Origin: Oscillospiraceae bacterium
Lineage (GTDB): Bacteria > Bacillota > Clostridia > Oscillospirales > Acutalibacteraceae
Assembly (NCBI GenBank): GCA_031290595.1
Contig: JAITNG010000206.1
Span: 1-37,824 of the forward strand
DNA length: 37,824 nt
Direction: 5' to 3'
Position numbers and translations under genes: made by a program. Under the pieces are notes generated by a model. The model searched no databases, was not told where the DNA came from, and worked only from the letters and a program-made list of their open reading frames with translations. Below, one piece after another: positions 19,458 to 28,521 of the stretch. The first letter of the stretch is position 1. Every line of letters begins with the position of its first letter.

Positions 19458-20735
19458 ATGGAAGAAAACTGGATTTGGAAGCCTGTAGCGTTTGATGAAC
19501 GATGGCTTGCATTGAACACAGAACAGATTGATCAAGTGACACCTGTTTGGTTTGAAAAAAGAGCTTCCATCAAAGAGAGCAACGAGGAACTCAAGGCCTT
19601 TTTCACGCGGATCAAGCGCAGGCAGGCGATAGAAACAGGGATCGTTGAAGGCCTTTACAGCCTTAGCCGTGGAGCGACGGAAACTTTTGTTATGCAGGGG
19701 TTTGCGGAAGATTATTTGCAGCATGGCGATTCCAACCTGCCCAACGATGAACTCTTGGCACATTTGAACGACCAATACGAAGCGCTGGATTGGGTGTTTG
19801 ATTTTATCAAAAGTGACCGGGATCTCAGCGTTGGATTTATCAAGGAACTGCACGCGCTGCTCACCTGCCACCAGGCAACGGCGGTGGGAATCACGCCGGA
19901 TGGGCAGCGGATTCAAATCCCGCTGCTTCACGGTGAATTTAAGGTGCGCCCCAATAATCCTATGCAGTCTGATGGAGCAATTGCCTGCTATTGTCCGCCT
20001 ATGCAGGTGGATTCGGAAATGGATGCCTTCATTTCTGTATATAGCAACGAAATGAAACAAGCACACCCCGTGGTTCGCGCAACATGGGCGCACTATACCT
20101 TTGTTACGATTCATCCGTTTCAGGATGGCAATGGCAGGATGGCACGGTTGGTTGCAAGTTTGATTCTGATACAGGGTGGATTGTTGCCGTTTGCTTTGGA
20201 ACGAACCCAACGCCCCCAATATTTTGCGGCTTTGGAAAAAGCCGATGCAGGCATCTACCAACCGCTGTTGGATATGTTGATTGCTGATCAATTGGAAAGT
20301 ATGGGGCCGGAAGTGGTAGCGCGGGCACTGGCAGGCAAGATACAAACCAGTGCGCAACTGCAAAAATTTGTTGCGCTGGAAGAAAAGCGAAAGGCAATCA
20401 ACGCATATTCCAACGATATTGCAGTTCAAAAAGCGGAGGCAGTTAATCTGCAGCTCCAAGCGGTTGGAACAGCGCGCAGTTTTAAGGGGGTTGAAGAACC
20501 ATCTATATATATAAATCTTATTACGCAAAGAAAATTCCAAATTCGCTTTACAAGCGGCATTGAGCGGGATACAATTGTCTTGCAATATGAGATGCGGGAA
20601 GCATTCCACTCCATTTCTACGGATGCGATTACTATCACAGCAGATATGGATGAAGAATCCGCAAAGTTGCTTGTTGAAGCGTTCATACAAAAGAAGCTGA
20701 CCTGCGCTTTGCAATTCATCTCTCAATCTTTATAG
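19458..20735 (+). CDS. Fic-domain protein (predicted AMP-transferase) with N-terminal inhibitory motif
   Basis: HPFQDGNGRMAR Fic motif; upstream TGIVEG fits the (S/T)xxxE(G/N) inhibitory-helix motif; GGACTAGGAGG RBS. Confidence 0.92.
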   Translation: MEENWIWKPVAFDERWLALNTEQIDQVTPVWFEKRASIKESNEELKAFFTRIKRRQAIETGIVEGLYSLSRGATETFVMQGFAEDYLQHGDSNLPNDELLAHLNDQYEALDWVFDFIKSDRDLSVGFIKELHALLTCHQATAVGITPDGQRIQIPLLHGEFKVRPNNPMQSDGAIACYCPPMQVDSEMDAFISVYSNEMKQAHPVVRATWAHYTFVTIHPFQDGNGRMARLVASLILIQGGLLPFALERTQRPQYFAALEKADAGIYQPLLDMLIADQLESMGPEVVARALAGKIQTSAQLQKFVALEEKRKAINAYSNDIAVQKAEAVNLQLQAVGTARSFKGVEEPSIYINLITQRKFQIRFTSGIERDTIVLQYEMREAFHSISTDAITITADMDEESAKLLVEAFIQKKLTCALQFISQSL

Positions 20736-20786: not shown

Positions 20787-21185
20787 ATGCCCGGTTATCA
20801 CATCAACCGCGTGGCGGAGGACATCAAGCGTGAGCTGGTTGTTTTGCTGCGCGAAATGAAGGACCCGCGTTTGCATGGCAAGCTCTTGACCGTGGTGCGC
20901 GTGGCGCTGAGCGGCGACGGCTCCAGCGCAAAGGTTTACATCAGCGCAATGGAGGGCAAGACCGCCGCTGTGGAAGCCGTCAAGGCCTTGCAGAGCGGGC
21001 AGGGCTTTGTGCGCGGCGAAATCGGCAGACGGCTGCACCTGCGCAAAGCGCCCGAGCTGCGTTTTGTGGCGGATGACTCCATTGAAACAGGGACGCAGAT
21101 CCTGCGCATGATGGATGCGCTGGATATTCCGGCCGCAGATGAAACAGTCGAAGAAGGACAGGGAAATGCAAATGAAGCGGATTGA
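20787..21185 (+). CDS. rbfA: Ribosome-binding factor A
   Basis: HINRVAEDIKRELVVLLREMKDPRLHGKLLTVVRVALSGDGSSAKVYISAMEG. Confidence 0.93.
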   Translation: MPGYHINRVAEDIKRELVVLLREMKDPRLHGKLLTVVRVALSGDGSSAKVYISAMEGKTAAVEAVKALQSGQGFVRGEIGRRLHLRKAPELRFVADDSIETGTQILRMMDALDIPAADETVEEGQGNANEAD

Positions 21186-22146
21186 TGTGCGGCAGGCCGC
21201 CGAGCGCCTGCAAACAGCCCCCGCGCTGCGCATCCTGGTGCATAGCCACCCGGATGGCGACACGCTGGGCTGCGCCTTTGCCCTGGCGCGGGCGATGCAT
21301 TGGCTGGGCAAGGACGTTTGCGTGTTGAGCGAGGATCCGATCCCCGAAATGTTCGCCTTTATGGCGGCGGGTCTGCCCCAGCGGGAGCGGGAATACGGGC
21401 TGCTGGTCTGCGTGGACGTCGCCGACGAACATCTGCTGGGCAAACGCCAGGTGGAACGCTTTGGCGGGCGCATCGCCCTCAACCTGGATCACCATGCCAC
21501 CAACCCCCTCTTTGCCGCCGAAACGTGTGTGGACCCCGCTGCGGCGGCTGCGGCAGAGCTGGTTTGCGACGTCATCGATACGTTGGGTGTGCCGCTGGAT
21601 ACCGCCATGGCCTCCTGCCTGTATGCCGGGATTTCGACGGACACGGGCTGCTTCCGCTATTCCAACACCACCGCCCGCAGCCACCGCTGCGCCGCGCGGT
21701 TCATGGAACTCGGTACCCCCGCTGCGGAGCTGGACAGGGCGTTTTTTGAAACCAAAACCAAGACCTGCGCGGCGTTGGAGCGCATGGCGTTTGAGGGTCT
21801 CCGCTTTTATTGCGGCGACCGCGTGGCGATGATCGTCGTCACACAGGCGATGTTCCGCAAAAGCGGTTCCAACGAAGAGGAGTTCATCAAGCTCGTGCCG
21901 CAAACCCGGCAGATTGAAGGTGTGCTGGTGGGTGTTTCCATACGGGAACGCGAGGACGGCAGCTTCAAAATCTCGCTGCGCAGTCACGCGCCGGTGGATG
22001 CAGCGGAAATTTGCGCCCGCATGGGCGGCGGCGGCCACGCCAGAGCGGCAGGTTGCGCCAGCGAAAAGCCCCTGGGGGCAACAGTGGAAGAGATTGTGGG
22101 GTATATTGACGAGGCGTTGCAGGGGGTTGGCAAGGAATTCTGCTGA
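21166..22146 (+). CDS. nrnA: DHH-family phosphoesterase (NrnA-like oligoribonuclease/pAp phosphatase)
   Basis: ILVHSHPDGDTLGCAFALARAM...VCVDVADEH...LNLDHHATN...YAGISTDTGCFRYSNTT...GGGGHARAAG. Confidence 0.92.
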   Translation: MQMKRIDVRQAAERLQTAPALRILVHSHPDGDTLGCAFALARAMHWLGKDVCVLSEDPIPEMFAFMAAGLPQREREYGLLVCVDVADEHLLGKRQVERFGGRIALNLDHHATNPLFAAETCVDPAAAAAAELVCDVIDTLGVPLDTAMASCLYAGISTDTGCFRYSNTTARSHRCAARFMELGTPAAELDRAFFETKTKTCAALERMAFEGLRFYCGDRVAMIVVTQAMFRKSGSNEEEFIKLVPQTRQIEGVLVGVSIREREDGSFKISLRSHAPVDAAEICARMGGGGHARAAGCASEKPLGATVEEIVGYIDEALQGVGKEFC

Positions 22147-22161
22147 GGGGAGGGACATTGC

Positions 22162-23286
22162 GTGGGAAAAACGGAGCGGGATGTGTATATTTGCGCAACA
22201 TACTATCACATTCTTATCGCAGCGATTAAAGGTTTGCGGGCAGAGGAAAAGCCGGATATTGTGATTTGCGATTTGCTTACAGATGACAACAATTGTGAAG
22301 CTGTAGCCAACAATATCCGATGCAGTCAGATTTTTCGCAATGTGACCGTGTTCCCGGAACTCAAGATTCGACTCTTTTTGGGGAAGGGAAGAATCCCAAA
22401 TATCTGCTGGGGAACTGCAAGGCATGGACAACCATTGGACGGATGGGAACCTCTTGAAAATCTTCCAATCAAACACCTATTAGCTGACCACATCTTAATC
22501 AAAAAAGCAATCAAGGAATTTCAGCTGAACGAATATGCATTCCAGAACTATCGCAATGTCTATGCTTTTGCTGATCAACTGTTTGCCAGTGTTTATTTGC
22601 GTTATACAAAAACTGCGTATCACATCATTGAAGACGGGCTTGATCATTACAAGAATGTGTTTAAGTATTGTACGTTTTCATATAATAAAACGCTCCGGGA
22701 AAAGATTCTGTCGCCATTGCTTGAAGTGCATTATATCCATGGAAAATCAAAATACACGAAGAGCGTTGAGGTCAACGACGCGGAAGGCATTGTCCCAATT
22801 CCACCCCCAAAAGTGCACGTTCAACCGAAAGCAGCGCTGTTTTCCGCTTTGCATTCAGACGAAAAGCAAAAACTGCTGCGGCTTTTTACGGATGGATATG
22901 ATTTTTCAGTTCCTGAAAGTTTGAATTGTATATTATTGTTGACAAGTCCATTTGTTGAAGATGGACTTTTAGCTACGCAGGAACAGCAGATACAGCTTTT
23001 TCGTGAAGTGCTTAACACCACCTGCGGGGGGGGGCAAACAGTCATTCTCAAGCCTCACCCGCGTGATTTTGATGGCGATATTTACCGCGAAGCATTTGCA
23101 GGTCAAAATGTGATTGTGATGGAAAAGAATATCCCTGTTGAAGTGCTTCTCTTTTTAGAGGGCGTGCATTTTGCGAAGAGTGTCACTGTTTTGTCTACTG
23201 CATTGGCACAGTTGGACTTTGTAGAAGAAAAGATTTCTCTTGGTTTCGATTGGCTGAACGCATGGAAGGAGAGAAACGGCGCATGA
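22162..23286 (+). CDS. GT52-like sialyltransferase/polysialyltransferase-type glycosyltransferase
   Basis: (D/E)(D/E)G-type motif AYHIIEDGLDHYKN and HP motif VILKPHPRDFDG; N-terminal VYICATYYHILIA; ATGA-coupled to a CMP-sugar synthetase gene. Confidence 0.7.
   Translation: MGKTERDVYICATYYHILIAAIKGLRAEEKPDIVICDLLTDDNNCEAVANNIRCSQIFRNVTVFPELKIRLFLGKGRIPNICWGTARHGQPLDGWEPLENLPIKHLLADHILIKKAIKEFQLNEYAFQNYRNVYAFADQLFASVYLRYTKTAYHIIEDGLDHYKNVFKYCTFSYNKTLREKILSPLLEVHYIHGKSKYTKSVEVNDAEGIVPIPPPKVHVQPKAALFSALHSDEKQKLLRLFTDGYDFSVPESLNCILLLTSPFVEDGLLATQEQQIQLFREVLNTTCGGGQTVILKPHPRDFDGDIYREAFAGQNVIVMEKNIPVEVLLFLEGVHFAKSVTVLSTALAQLDFVEEKISLGFDWLNAWKERNGA
23026..23034 (+). repeat. Homopolymeric G9 tract inside the sialyltransferase-like CDS
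   Basis: acctgc GGGGGGGGG caaaca read directly. Confidence 0.95.
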
Positions 23287-23936
23287 AGATAGTCGCATTT
23301 GTTCCATTGAAGCTCAATAACGAACGGCTTCCGGGTAAGAATCTGAAACCGTTTTTGGATGGACAGTCGCCGCTGTCGCTTACGCTTGCAATGCTGCAAA
23401 GGGTTCATTTGGTGGATGAGGTGTATGTGTTTTGTAGTTCAGGCAGCCTTCGTGACCAGATACCGGATTCCATACGTTTTATCCAAAGAAGCGCAGAATT
23501 GGATTCGGCAACAACGACCGGTAACGATCTTGTACAGGCGTTTGCGCAAGTTGTGGAAGCAGATATTTACGTTAAGATGCACGTGACGGCTCCCTTTATT
23601 GAACCCGCCAGCATTGAACGCGGAATCAACGCACTGCTGAACGAGGGTTATGATTCGGCTTTCCCGGTAACAACGCAACATGAATTCCTTTGGATAGGCG
23701 GTAAGCCGAATTACAACACAAAGCATATTCCGCGGACGCAGGATTTGATGCCCTTTCATATTGAAACCACAGGATTTTATGTTTATAAAAAAGAAGTGCT
23801 TTGTCGATGCGACAGCAGGATCGGCACAAAACCGTTCCTGATTCCAGTATCCAAGATCGAAGCAACCGACATCAACGATCCTATTGATTTCGATATTGCA
23901 AGTGCGATTTATAGCCAGGTCATCCTTAAACGCTAA
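23283..23936 (+). CDS. CMP-N-acetylneuraminate/nonulosonate cytidylyltransferase-like protein
   Basis: MKIVAFVPLKLNNERLPGKNLKPFLDGQSPLSLTLAMLQRV...QRSAELDSATTTGNDLVQAFAQVVEADIYVKMHVTAPFIEPASIERGI; NeuA/PseF-like signature. Confidence 0.85.
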   Translation: MKIVAFVPLKLNNERLPGKNLKPFLDGQSPLSLTLAMLQRVHLVDEVYVFCSSGSLRDQIPDSIRFIQRSAELDSATTTGNDLVQAFAQVVEADIYVKMHVTAPFIEPASIERGINALLNEGYDSAFPVTTQHEFLWIGGKPNYNTKHIPRTQDLMPFHIETTGFYVYKKEVLCRCDSRIGTKPFLIPVSKIEATDINDPIDFDIASAIYSQVILKR

Positions 23937-23943
23937 TACACCC

Positions 23944-23985
23944 GCCCCCGCATCGGCCATTGACGGCTGGTGCGGGGGCTTATTA
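23944..23985 (+). terminator. Rho-independent terminator after the nonulosonate pair
   Basis: GCCCCCGCA ... TGCGGGGGC stem followed by TTATTAT. Confidence 0.7.
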
Positions 23986-25164: not shown

Positions 25165-26523
25165 GTGGGGCGGGTGTTGGAAACATTGAAAACACTTTGG
25201 CTGGAGAATTGGAAAATCATCGTAGGGGTTGTTGTAGTCGTGCTGGGATTGATTACGACCTACATTACGTTGAAAACAGCACAGGTAAATCACAAGGCAG
25301 CAAAAGAGAAGGCAGCAGCAGAGAAGCAGGAGCGCGAAGAACGGCAGAAGCGCGAAGCGCAGCAAGCGCAGCCCGCCGCCCCGCCTGAAATCAAGCCAGC
25401 CAAGCCAAACTTTGCCTTCAACCAAGGCGAAGCCTTTTACGAAAAAGGCGATTACAAAAATGCGCTGGTGGCGTTCGAGAAATCCGTGGCAGTATATGAA
25501 GCCGACGAAAACGCGCAACCCATCGATCTTGCAAAGGCATATTATTTGGCAGGGGTGTTGCATTATGAACTTGGGGAATATGATGCAGCATATAAGCGCT
25601 ACATCGCAGCAGAGGGCATTTATAAAAATGACGCGAATGCGAACCAGTTGGAACTGGGAGCGATTTATACTGCCCACGGCAACGTGTATGAAAAACAGGG
25701 CAAGTGGGATACGGCGCTTATTTGGCACAAAAAAGCGTTGTCTGTTGACGAGAAAATATTGGGAACAGGAGATTTATATACGGCAACGGACTACAACAAC
25801 ATTGCGGTAGTGTATAAAAAGCAAGGTGAATATGAAGAAGCGTTGGAATGGCACCGCAAGGCGCTGGTTGTTCGCGAAAAGGTATTGGGCAAAGAACATC
25901 CAAGCATCGCAGCGAGCTATAACAACATTGCGGTTGTGTATGATGAGCAAGGCAAATATGAAGAAGCCCTGGAATGGTACAGCAAGGCGCTGGTTGCAAA
26001 AGAAAAGGCATTGGGCAAAGAACATCCAAGCACCGCAATGACCTATGGTAACATTGCGATTGTGTATAAAGAGCAAGGCAAATATGAAGAAGCGCTGGAA
26101 TGGTACCGCAAGGCTTTAGCTGTTTGCGAAAAGGCATTGGGCAAAGAGCATCCAGATACCGCAGCAACCTACAACAACATTGCGAATGTGTATGAAGAGC
26201 AAGGCAAATATGGAGAAGCGCTGGAATGGCACCACAAGGCGCTGGTTGCAAAAGAAAAGGCATTAGGCAAAGAGCATCCAAGCACCGCAGTGACCTACAA
26301 CAACATTGCGAATGTGTATGATGGGCAAGGCAAATATGAAGAAGCGCTAGAACTATCCGTAAAGGCCTATCGCGTTGGTGTTGTTAAACTGGGCGAAGAT
26401 CACCCATACACACAAACGTACCTTAACAATATGCGTAACACCTACGCCCGCTGGCGCGCCGACGGCACCCCGCCTTTTGAAGCCTGGTTGGCTGCGCAGA
26501 TGAAAGACAACATTCTTTCGTAG
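25165..26523 (+). CDS. Membrane-anchored TPR (kinesin-light-chain-like) repeat protein
   Basis: N-terminal TM (IIVGVVVVVLGLITTYITL), coiled charged linker, then 42-aa repeats YNNIAVVYDEQGKYEEALEWYSKALVAKEKALGKEHPST. Confidence 0.92.
   Translation: MGRVLETLKTLWLENWKIIVGVVVVVLGLITTYITLKTAQVNHKAAKEKAAAEKQEREERQKREAQQAQPAAPPEIKPAKPNFAFNQGEAFYEKGDYKNALVAFEKSVAVYEADENAQPIDLAKAYYLAGVLHYELGEYDAAYKRYIAAEGIYKNDANANQLELGAIYTAHGNVYEKQGKWDTALIWHKKALSVDEKILGTGDLYTATDYNNIAVVYKKQGEYEEALEWHRKALVVREKVLGKEHPSIAASYNNIAVVYDEQGKYEEALEWYSKALVAKEKALGKEHPSTAMTYGNIAIVYKEQGKYEEALEWYRKALAVCEKALGKEHPDTAATYNNIANVYEEQGKYGEALEWHHKALVAKEKALGKEHPSTAVTYNNIANVYDGQGKYEEALELSVKAYRVGVVKLGEDHPYTQTYLNNMRNTYARWRADGTPPFEAWLAAQMKDNILS
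25885..26388 (+). repeat. 126-bp tandem coding repeats (42 codons) in the TPR gene
   Basis: TTGGGCAAAGA... recurs at 25885, 26011, 26137 and (TTAGGC) 26263, exactly 126 bp apart. Confidence 0.9.
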
Positions 26524-26616
26524 GCACAACATCGCCCGCTGTGGAATTCTTTCACCCCGCGCACCCTTTCTGCATACCATGGAACAGTATCATTTCGTGT
26601 GCAGGGAGGCTTCAGA

Positions 26617-28521
26617 ATGGCATTGGATAGGGCGCGGATGTTGCAGCTCCGTGCGGCGGTGTGCAGCACGCCGGTGATTGTGCCGCCGGATCCGCAGGTC
26701 GATGCGCAGCTGGATTATACCGGAACCAACTTTTGCTCCAACCCGGGTGCGCCGGATTCGGCTTACATGATTTCCAACGCAGGCGGCGGACACAATCAGT
26801 TTTATTATATCCCCGCCACGGTCAACGGTGTGACGCGCTGGGCGCTTTGCCTGGATCACACATTGGGCGGGCCGGAGGGCAGCTTTGAGAACATATCGGC
26901 GGCGGATGCGTTGCCGGGTTCCACCGTGCAGCAGCAGTTGGCGGTTGCCTTTGTCGCCGTCAACGCCCCGGCGGACGGGGCGGACACAACGGCGGCAGAT
27001 AACCTTTTCACTTTGCTGGGGGTTGACCCCACCGGCTTGAATCCCTATGACGCGCTTGCCGTCAGCCAGGCGGCCATCTGGGCGATTTTGGGGCAGATCA
27101 ACCCGGCGGACGTGACCTTCCCCCTGTGCGACGGTTCGCCCAACCCAAAAGCGCCGCAGCTGCAACAGGCGCTCACCCAGCTGGTTTATTTGGCGCAATC
27201 CTACGGCAATGGCAACACGTCGGTTTGCGCAACCGGCACAACTGGCGCAACGGGAGCAACAGGCGCAACGCTGGCCGCGTCAACTGCGGAAAGCGCGATG
27301 CCCGCCGGGCGTTGCTGCGGTTCCTGCGGCGTGGGCGGCGTTGGCGCTGTGGCGGTGGGTTGCCAAATCGGCAGCATCCAAACCTGCATCACCAGCGCGG
27401 CTATCACGGATAGCAGCGATACATATCTGGTCTTCGTCGGCTGTGCCTACGACGTCCGGGAGGTCTGTGGCCGGGTGCTGGTTGGGCCGTTTATGCTCCA
27501 GTCTTCCAACACAAACGGGGCGACGCCCCCCGTCATCACCGCAAACCCCTGCCTTGGCTGCGACCCGGTTACGTTCACCTTTGCCGATTATTGCGGCGGC
27601 GCGATTGCTGCACCCGGCATCGGCCAGGAATTTTATCTGCTGATCCGCCCGCCCTGCATGAATTTTTGCTTTGATTTGGAAGCGACCTACGACGGCATGG
27701 CCGATGCGGTGTATTTTTTTCGTGATCCCCTGGAACCGGGTTCCGACCAGCCGGTGGCGCTGCTGGTGCCGGTGGAGCGGCACATGACCACCCACGAACA
27801 CGTCTGCATCGACCTGGAACAACCCGTCGAACCCGCGCCAACGCCCCCCGGCGGCGTGCCTTCGTGGCTGGAACATATTCTGATCAACAACAATAATAAC
27901 AACAACAACCAGAGCAGCAGCAACGTCAGCAATAATAACAACAACAGCAACAACAATAACAACAGCTTTATGCAGGGGCTGTTCAGCGGGATGGCGCTGG
28001 GCGGTGGTGGTGGCGCATACCCCGGCGGTGCGCCGCCATACCCACCGTATCCTCCGTATGCACCGTACCCGCCCTATCCGCCGTATGCGCAATTCCCGCC
28101 GTACCCGCCGTTTCCCCCAGCACCGCCCTATCCGCCGTTTATGCCATACCCGCCGTTTCCGCCGTATCCGCAGGAGCCGTCGCAGCCGATCCCGCCCATC
28201 CCGCCAATTCCGCCGATTCCTCCCATTCCACCGATCCCCCCCACGCCGCCGGAACCGCCGCCGCCCTATTTTTACATACCGCCCCTGCCGCCGCCGCCCA
28301 GCCAGCCCCCGGCACAACCCGCGCCGCCGCATGTCTATAACCCGGTGACGGTGGTGGTTCCCCCCGGCGGGAACCAGGCGCCGCCGCCCGCCTATAGCGC
28401 AGACCCCTGCGAAGCATTGCCGCTGTTGTTGCCGGAAGCCTCCAGCGCACCGCACCCGGCGTATTGGGGCGAACCTCCCCAAGGCTGGGAATTTTCGCCG
28501 GCTGTGCCGCAAGGCTGGTGA
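26617..28521 (+). CDS. Modular surface/spore-associated protein: thioester-domain-like N-terminus, Cys-rich middle, poly-Asn and Pro/Tyr-rich tail
   Basis: WALCLDHTLGGPEGSFE and VSQAAIWAIL resemble the Cys and Gln motifs of bacterial thioester domains; GTTGATGATGAT; CCGSCG; NNNNNNNNQSSSNVSNNNNNSNNNNN; (PPYPPYPPYAPYPPYPPYAQFPPYPP) and (PIPPIPPIPP) runs; no obvious signal peptide. Confidence 0.75.
   Translation: MALDRARMLQLRAAVCSTPVIVPPDPQVDAQLDYTGTNFCSNPGAPDSAYMISNAGGGHNQFYYIPATVNGVTRWALCLDHTLGGPEGSFENISAADALPGSTVQQQLAVAFVAVNAPADGADTTAADNLFTLLGVDPTGLNPYDALAVSQAAIWAILGQINPADVTFPLCDGSPNPKAPQLQQALTQLVYLAQSYGNGNTSVCATGTTGATGATGATLAASTAESAMPAGRCCGSCGVGGVGAVAVGCQIGSIQTCITSAAITDSSDTYLVFVGCAYDVREVCGRVLVGPFMLQSSNTNGATPPVITANPCLGCDPVTFTFADYCGGAIAAPGIGQEFYLLIRPPCMNFCFDLEATYDGMADAVYFFRDPLEPGSDQPVALLVPVERHMTTHEHVCIDLEQPVEPAPTPPGGVPSWLEHILINNNNNNNNQSSSNVSNNNNNSNNNNNSFMQGLFSGMALGGGGGAYPGGAPPYPPYPPYAPYPPYPPYAQFPPYPPFPPAPPYPPFMPYPPFPPYPQEPSQPIPPIPPIPPIPPIPPIPPTPPEPPPPYFYIPPLPPPPSQPPAQPAPPHVYNPVTVVVPPGGNQAPPPAYSADPCEALPLLLPEASSAPHPAYWGEPPQGWEFSPAVPQGW
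27885..27965 (+). repeat. Asn-coding AAC/AAT trinucleotide-rich tract
   Basis: Repeated aac/aat codons interrupted by Gln, Ser and Val codons. Confidence 0.85.

Follow-up and report, generated by a model that had tools for sequence, protein, structure and literature searches.

A nine-guanine tract in a polysialyltransferase-family gene is a candidate site of surface-glycan switching in an Oscillospiraceae bacterium

A homopolymer of nine guanines (G9) lies in frame inside a polysialyltransferase-family glycosyltransferase gene in the window, that is, the whole stretch of 37,824 nucleotides analysed here. We propose it, tentatively, as a candidate slippage-prone site of a selected, reversible ON/OFF switch of a surface glycan. 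We give this reading the same weight, a little short of even, as an incidental run of glycine codons. The features of the window on which the argument draws are as follows.

21115..22146, + strand: DHH/DHHA1 phosphoesterase gene (nrnA-like), GC 63%, flanking the low-GC insert on its left (profile match)
22162..23286, + strand: polysialyltransferase-family glycosyltransferase ORF, PF07388 (profile match and motifs)
23026..23034, + strand: G9 homopolymer, three GGG glycine codons, residues 289-291 (sequence and translation)
23050..23067, + strand: HP motif KPHPRD, absent from the +1 and -1 frames (translation and homologue alignment)
23064..23066, + strand: TGA stop reached with 7 or 10 G (translation)
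23111..23113, + strand: TGA stop reached with 8 or 11 G (translation)
23283..23936, + strand: CMP-sugar synthetase-like gene, cytidylyltransferase PF02348 (profile match)
23944..23979, + strand: terminator-like hairpin after the two-gene insert, 15 pairs, 12 of them G-C (consensus match only)

The G9 tract, the encoded enzyme and its low-GC insert

The glycosyltransferase ORF opens with GTG and encodes 374 amino acids. The tract, whose coordinates within this ORF the initial annotation had given correctly, is read in codon phase 0 (TGC GGG GGG GGG CAA) and lies 77% of the way along the ORF, not close to its start. Translation of altered tract lengths kept the frame open with 6, 9 or 12 G, and any one-base change in the homopolymer truncated the ORF; the stops annotated for 10 G and for 8 G were both recovered at the positions listed above. 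KPHPRD likewise begins, as annotated, 15 nt after the tract end (at 23050) and is lost in both shifted frames. Polymerases can slip on homopolymers, and transcriptional or ribosomal slippage on G9 would yield full-length and truncated products in a constant ratio from unchanged DNA; the in-frame state, however, requires no recoding, and we regard this explanation as very improbable.

The family assignment rests on a Pfam profile search (PF07388, E 1.4e-12, 48.2 bits against a curated cut-off of 23.3, residues 149-348) and on the two family motifs, both of which align with the homologues: HP (KPHPRD) and D/E-D/E-G, the latter present as EDG (HIIEDGLDH) upstream of the tract and kept in the homologues. 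The initial description of the product as sialyltransferase-like thus stands for family and motifs, and the word sialyltransferase itself is to be taken as a family label that does not specify the donor sugar, because the sole NeuB match in the genome, adjacent to aroB, reads as a DAHP synthase and was dropped as a NeuB candidate (genome completeness is 91%, and the donor may be scavenged). Searches with the glycosyltransferase protein recovered no relative from the genome_contigs collection and no match among phage and plasmid proteins, and a PDB sequence search gave no meaningful match. A single-sequence structure prediction of the enzyme (pLDDT 41) was set aside.

In the alignment of the nearest homologues (27-34% identity), no G run occurs at the position of the tract, so that a tract at the homologous position in relatives, which phase-variable loci usually but need not have, is absent; homologues at this identity say nothing either way on strain-level tract variation. 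The tract falls in the loop before the HP strand, which differs in length by a few residues among the homologues, so gain or loss of whole glycine codons at this place looks tolerable.

The stop codon of the glycosyltransferase gene overlaps the start codon of the cytidylyltransferase gene (ATGA, 23283-23286), and the latter is probably translationally coupled to the former. For the putative CMP-sugar synthetase, no NCBIfam model scored above its cut-off, the best being PseF (38 bits versus 205.7). The GC content is 42.8% in the glycosyltransferase ORF and 46% in the cytidylyltransferase gene, as against 63% in the nrnA-like gene. The nearest named relative is an Oscillospiraceae MAG with an nrnA-like gene 68% identical to the one here, and in this MAG truB (named from its translation) directly follows that gene; the two-gene pair is therefore probably an insertion, a horizontally acquired cassette.

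Elsewhere in the window, a Fic-domain gene (19458-20735, 47% GC) lies just upstream of rbfA, has no counterpart there in the relative L208 and is probably another insertion. Positions 25165-26523 encode a highly regular TPR_12/TPR_10 repeat protein (E 4.9e-102) at a low GC of 48%, and positions 26599-28521 a 640-aa protein that is Asn-rich, carries PPYPPF/PPIPP repeats and a Cys-rich middle, and has no match in Pfam or NCBIfam.

G/C runs across the gene and the genome

Within the window, 3 runs of at least eight G were observed against 2.5 expected. Across the genome, 7 internal G/C runs of at least nine bases were found versus 11-16 expected, where the expectation was drawn from a 265-kb sample of genome stretches and contig-end runs (C125, C190) were left out as likely artefacts. 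G9 by itself is thus not above chance genome-wide, and the total of G/C runs of this length is at or below expectation. GGG accounts for 25% of glycine codons genome-wide, so codon choice alone would give three in succession about once per 265 kb. These figures favour an incidental run, in which a loop that tolerates change happens to hold three GGG codons, these mutate at a somewhat higher rate than average, and frameshifts are repaired or purged with no selected switch, an account that we find just as credible as the selected switch. The absence of the tract from the homologues agrees with it, as does the occurrence of several further G9 runs in ordinary places (among them a gene for an NAGLU_C domain protein and an intergenic site). 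So does the presence of MutL, which was found in 14 of 14 genus genomes; judged from MutL, loss of mismatch repair as a cause of long tracts is unsupported.

Against an incidental run stands the gene itself, in which AT content is high and GGG is avoided. This codon encodes just 2 of the other 17 glycines, giving a probability of 0.0016 for three, and 20,000 simulations of a gene with this composition never produced a G9. In sampled loci below 50% GC, G/C runs hardly ever exceed five bases; this class is small (24 kb), and its genome-wide expectation of 0.0 by its own decay ratio, or about 0.5 by the ratio of the other classes, is accordingly a weak estimate. Four of the seven internal G/C tracts of at least nine bases occur at loci with less than 56% GC, for which the expected share was 16% (post hoc binomial P about 0.014), and these four are in membrane- or surface-type genes. 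The G9 is therefore locally unexpected, being out of keeping with the GC content and codon use of its gene, although such comparisons carry limited weight because they were made after the tract was seen.

The genome also has other tracts far beyond chance, which likewise argues against an incidental run. Two G/C13 tracts were found where 0.03-0.06 were expected (P 0.0003-0.0015). One, a G13 (L038 1236-1248, G000:C96, minus strand), lies in frame in a gene for a polytopic membrane protein with DUF6056. The other, a C13 (L037 6864-6876, G000:C34), follows a zinc-ribbon segment and shifts the DUF6273 part beyond it out of frame. A paralogue of this zinc-ribbon gene has a C9 at the same place (L040 1598-1606, G000:C15), with its downstream DUF4234 part out of frame. 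C13 and C9 at one homologous place with similar flanks form the kind of pattern that slippage leaves, and in the remaining zinc-ribbon genes inspected in the genome the linkers are proline-rich and contain no run longer than six. In another locus, a G9 (L039 4067-4075, G000:C54, minus strand) occupies the Shine-Dalgarno position directly upstream of the start codon (ATG) of a transporter-like gene.

The length that an assembly gives for a long G run can be in error or stand for a mixture of lengths, as illustrated by a G11 in a genome of the same genus (L139 1999-2009, G005:C42) that splits an aspartyl-tRNA synthetase gene into two frames, off by one base; this enzyme should be intact, and the run is either an assembly miscount or real heterogeneity. 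Single assemblies consequently do not prove tract length, and every inference of this kind is weakened, that from the zinc-ribbon paralogues included. The G9 in the glycosyltransferase gene might itself be miscounted or the consensus of a mixture, in which case neither its length nor the ON state could be taken at face value. The break in the essential synthetase gene speaks for this explanation, as does a terminal G36 on contig C190 that looks like a read artefact; conversely, nine G give a full-length ORF with matches to the family both before and after the tract, and a run of this length is within short-read reach. We therefore consider an erroneous length improbable.

The proposed switch and its known counterparts

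In the proposed switch, the G9 in the probably horizontally acquired cassette, comprising a polysialyltransferase-like glycosyltransferase and a CMP-sugar synthetase, would slip during replication. A one-base slip would leave a protein of 301 or 316 residues that lacks the HP motif, and the truncated glycosyltransferase would presumably be inactive; translation of the coupled downstream CMP-sugar synthetase gene would probably be lowered as well. A reverse slip would restore the full-length enzyme, and the outcome, if selected, would be reversible ON/OFF expression of a cell-surface glycan resembling the meningococcal siaD poly-C switch. The initial annotation had already suggested phase variation of this kind. 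Gene identity, frame arithmetic, the predicted consequence of slippage and other G/C tracts of the lineage that resemble length-variable sites speak for it; the lack of genome-wide enrichment of G9, the homologues without the tract, the presence of MutL, the late position of the tract in the ORF and the unreliability of assembled lengths speak against it.

The closest known counterpart is siaD, the serogroup B polysialyltransferase gene of Neisseria meningitidis, in which the tract is a poly-C within the coding sequence. Hammerschmidt and colleagues reportedly described in 1996 (cited in PMC3723569 and PMC8893959) a slipped-strand capsule switch in this gene, with both length variation and capsule loss shown. 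The two cases share a polysialyltransferase-type gene, an intragenic G/C homopolymer and truncation of the enzyme by a one-base slip. In siaD, however, variation and capsule loss are on record, whereas our case is one assembled sequence from a Clostridia-class host.

In Campylobacter jejuni, length changes have been directly observed in poly-G tracts of glycosyltransferase genes such as cgtB (PMC6437147; PMC8355987), and these tracts are mainly G9 and G10 (PMC8355987). The present tract is likewise an intragenic poly-G in a putative surface-glycan gene, of a length within the mutable range of C. jejuni; the changes were seen directly in that species, whereas in our genome runs of at least nine G are not enriched and MutL is present. 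In Bifidobacterium breve, a pilus switch depends on replication slippage at a G tract within a gene, as quantified by maximum depth sequencing (PMC9187656). This Gram-positive gut commensal uses slippage of the kind that the candidate described here would use; the gene class differs, and slippage was measured there but is predicted from sequence here. No description of poly-G phase variation in Clostridia was found in the open-access literature searched, of which coverage was partial. If the tract does switch, an uncultured bacterium of the class Clostridia, with a gut-type genome, would have a glycan switch of the siaD kind.

Poly-G promoter spacers in related genomes

A pattern search identified runs of G8-G16 between the -35 (TTGAC) and -10 (TANAAT) elements of promoters in relatives from several Clostridia families. 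There were 10 such sites in 3 of 14 genus genomes, 15 in 10 of 300 family genomes and 32 in 11 of 392 class genomes, with at most 9 in one genome (G712); a reversed-pattern control returned 0 sites in any genome of the three sets. No promoter with a poly-G spacer was found by this search in the window's own genome. Examples are listed below.

G001:C1:123784-123815: poly-G promoter spacer (pattern search)
G001:C1:175394-175424: poly-G promoter spacer (pattern search)
G001:C12:65430-65461: poly-G promoter spacer (pattern search)
G010:C23:1993-2021: poly-G promoter spacer (pattern search)

Many of the genes after these promoters begin with a signal-peptide-like sequence, as read from translation, and one has a BspA-type LRR domain, confirmed by Pfam. 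Run length differs between related promoters: two promoters of G269 whose downstream leaders are almost the same have G11 and G9, and lengths of G12, G13 and G9 occur among related promoters of G001 and G010. The spacers are probable slippage-variable promoters, and this result is stronger than the G9 finding itself. Promoter-spacer homopolymers act as switches in porA and opc of Neisseria and in the fim genes of Bordetella. The promoters of the relatives share this architecture (TTGAC..G8-16..TATAAT); they differ in belonging to Clostridia, in preceding predicted secreted-protein genes outside the window and in being known from sequence.

Because poly-G runs in the promoters of relatives differ in length between paralogues, poly-G variation is plausible in this lineage. 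We put at about even the chance that this bacterium and related Clostridia have a slippage phasome comparable to that of Campylobacter or Neisseria. It would consist of poly-G/poly-C tracts in the coding sequences of membrane and surface-glycan genes, among them the glycosyltransferase gene described here, and, in sister species, of poly-G spacers between the -35 and -10 elements of promoters of genes for secreted and other surface proteins, BspA-like ones included. Judging by the wider pattern in relatives, surface variation through slippage may have gone unnoticed in Clostridia.

When other tracts were screened for frame shifts, antisense and high-GC ORFs were also among the hits, and only clear cases were used. 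A C11 (L131, G008:C12) and a C10 (L152, G013:C7) lie near the start of secreted-protein genes, one of which encodes a CHAP domain, and each leaves its gene one base off frame.
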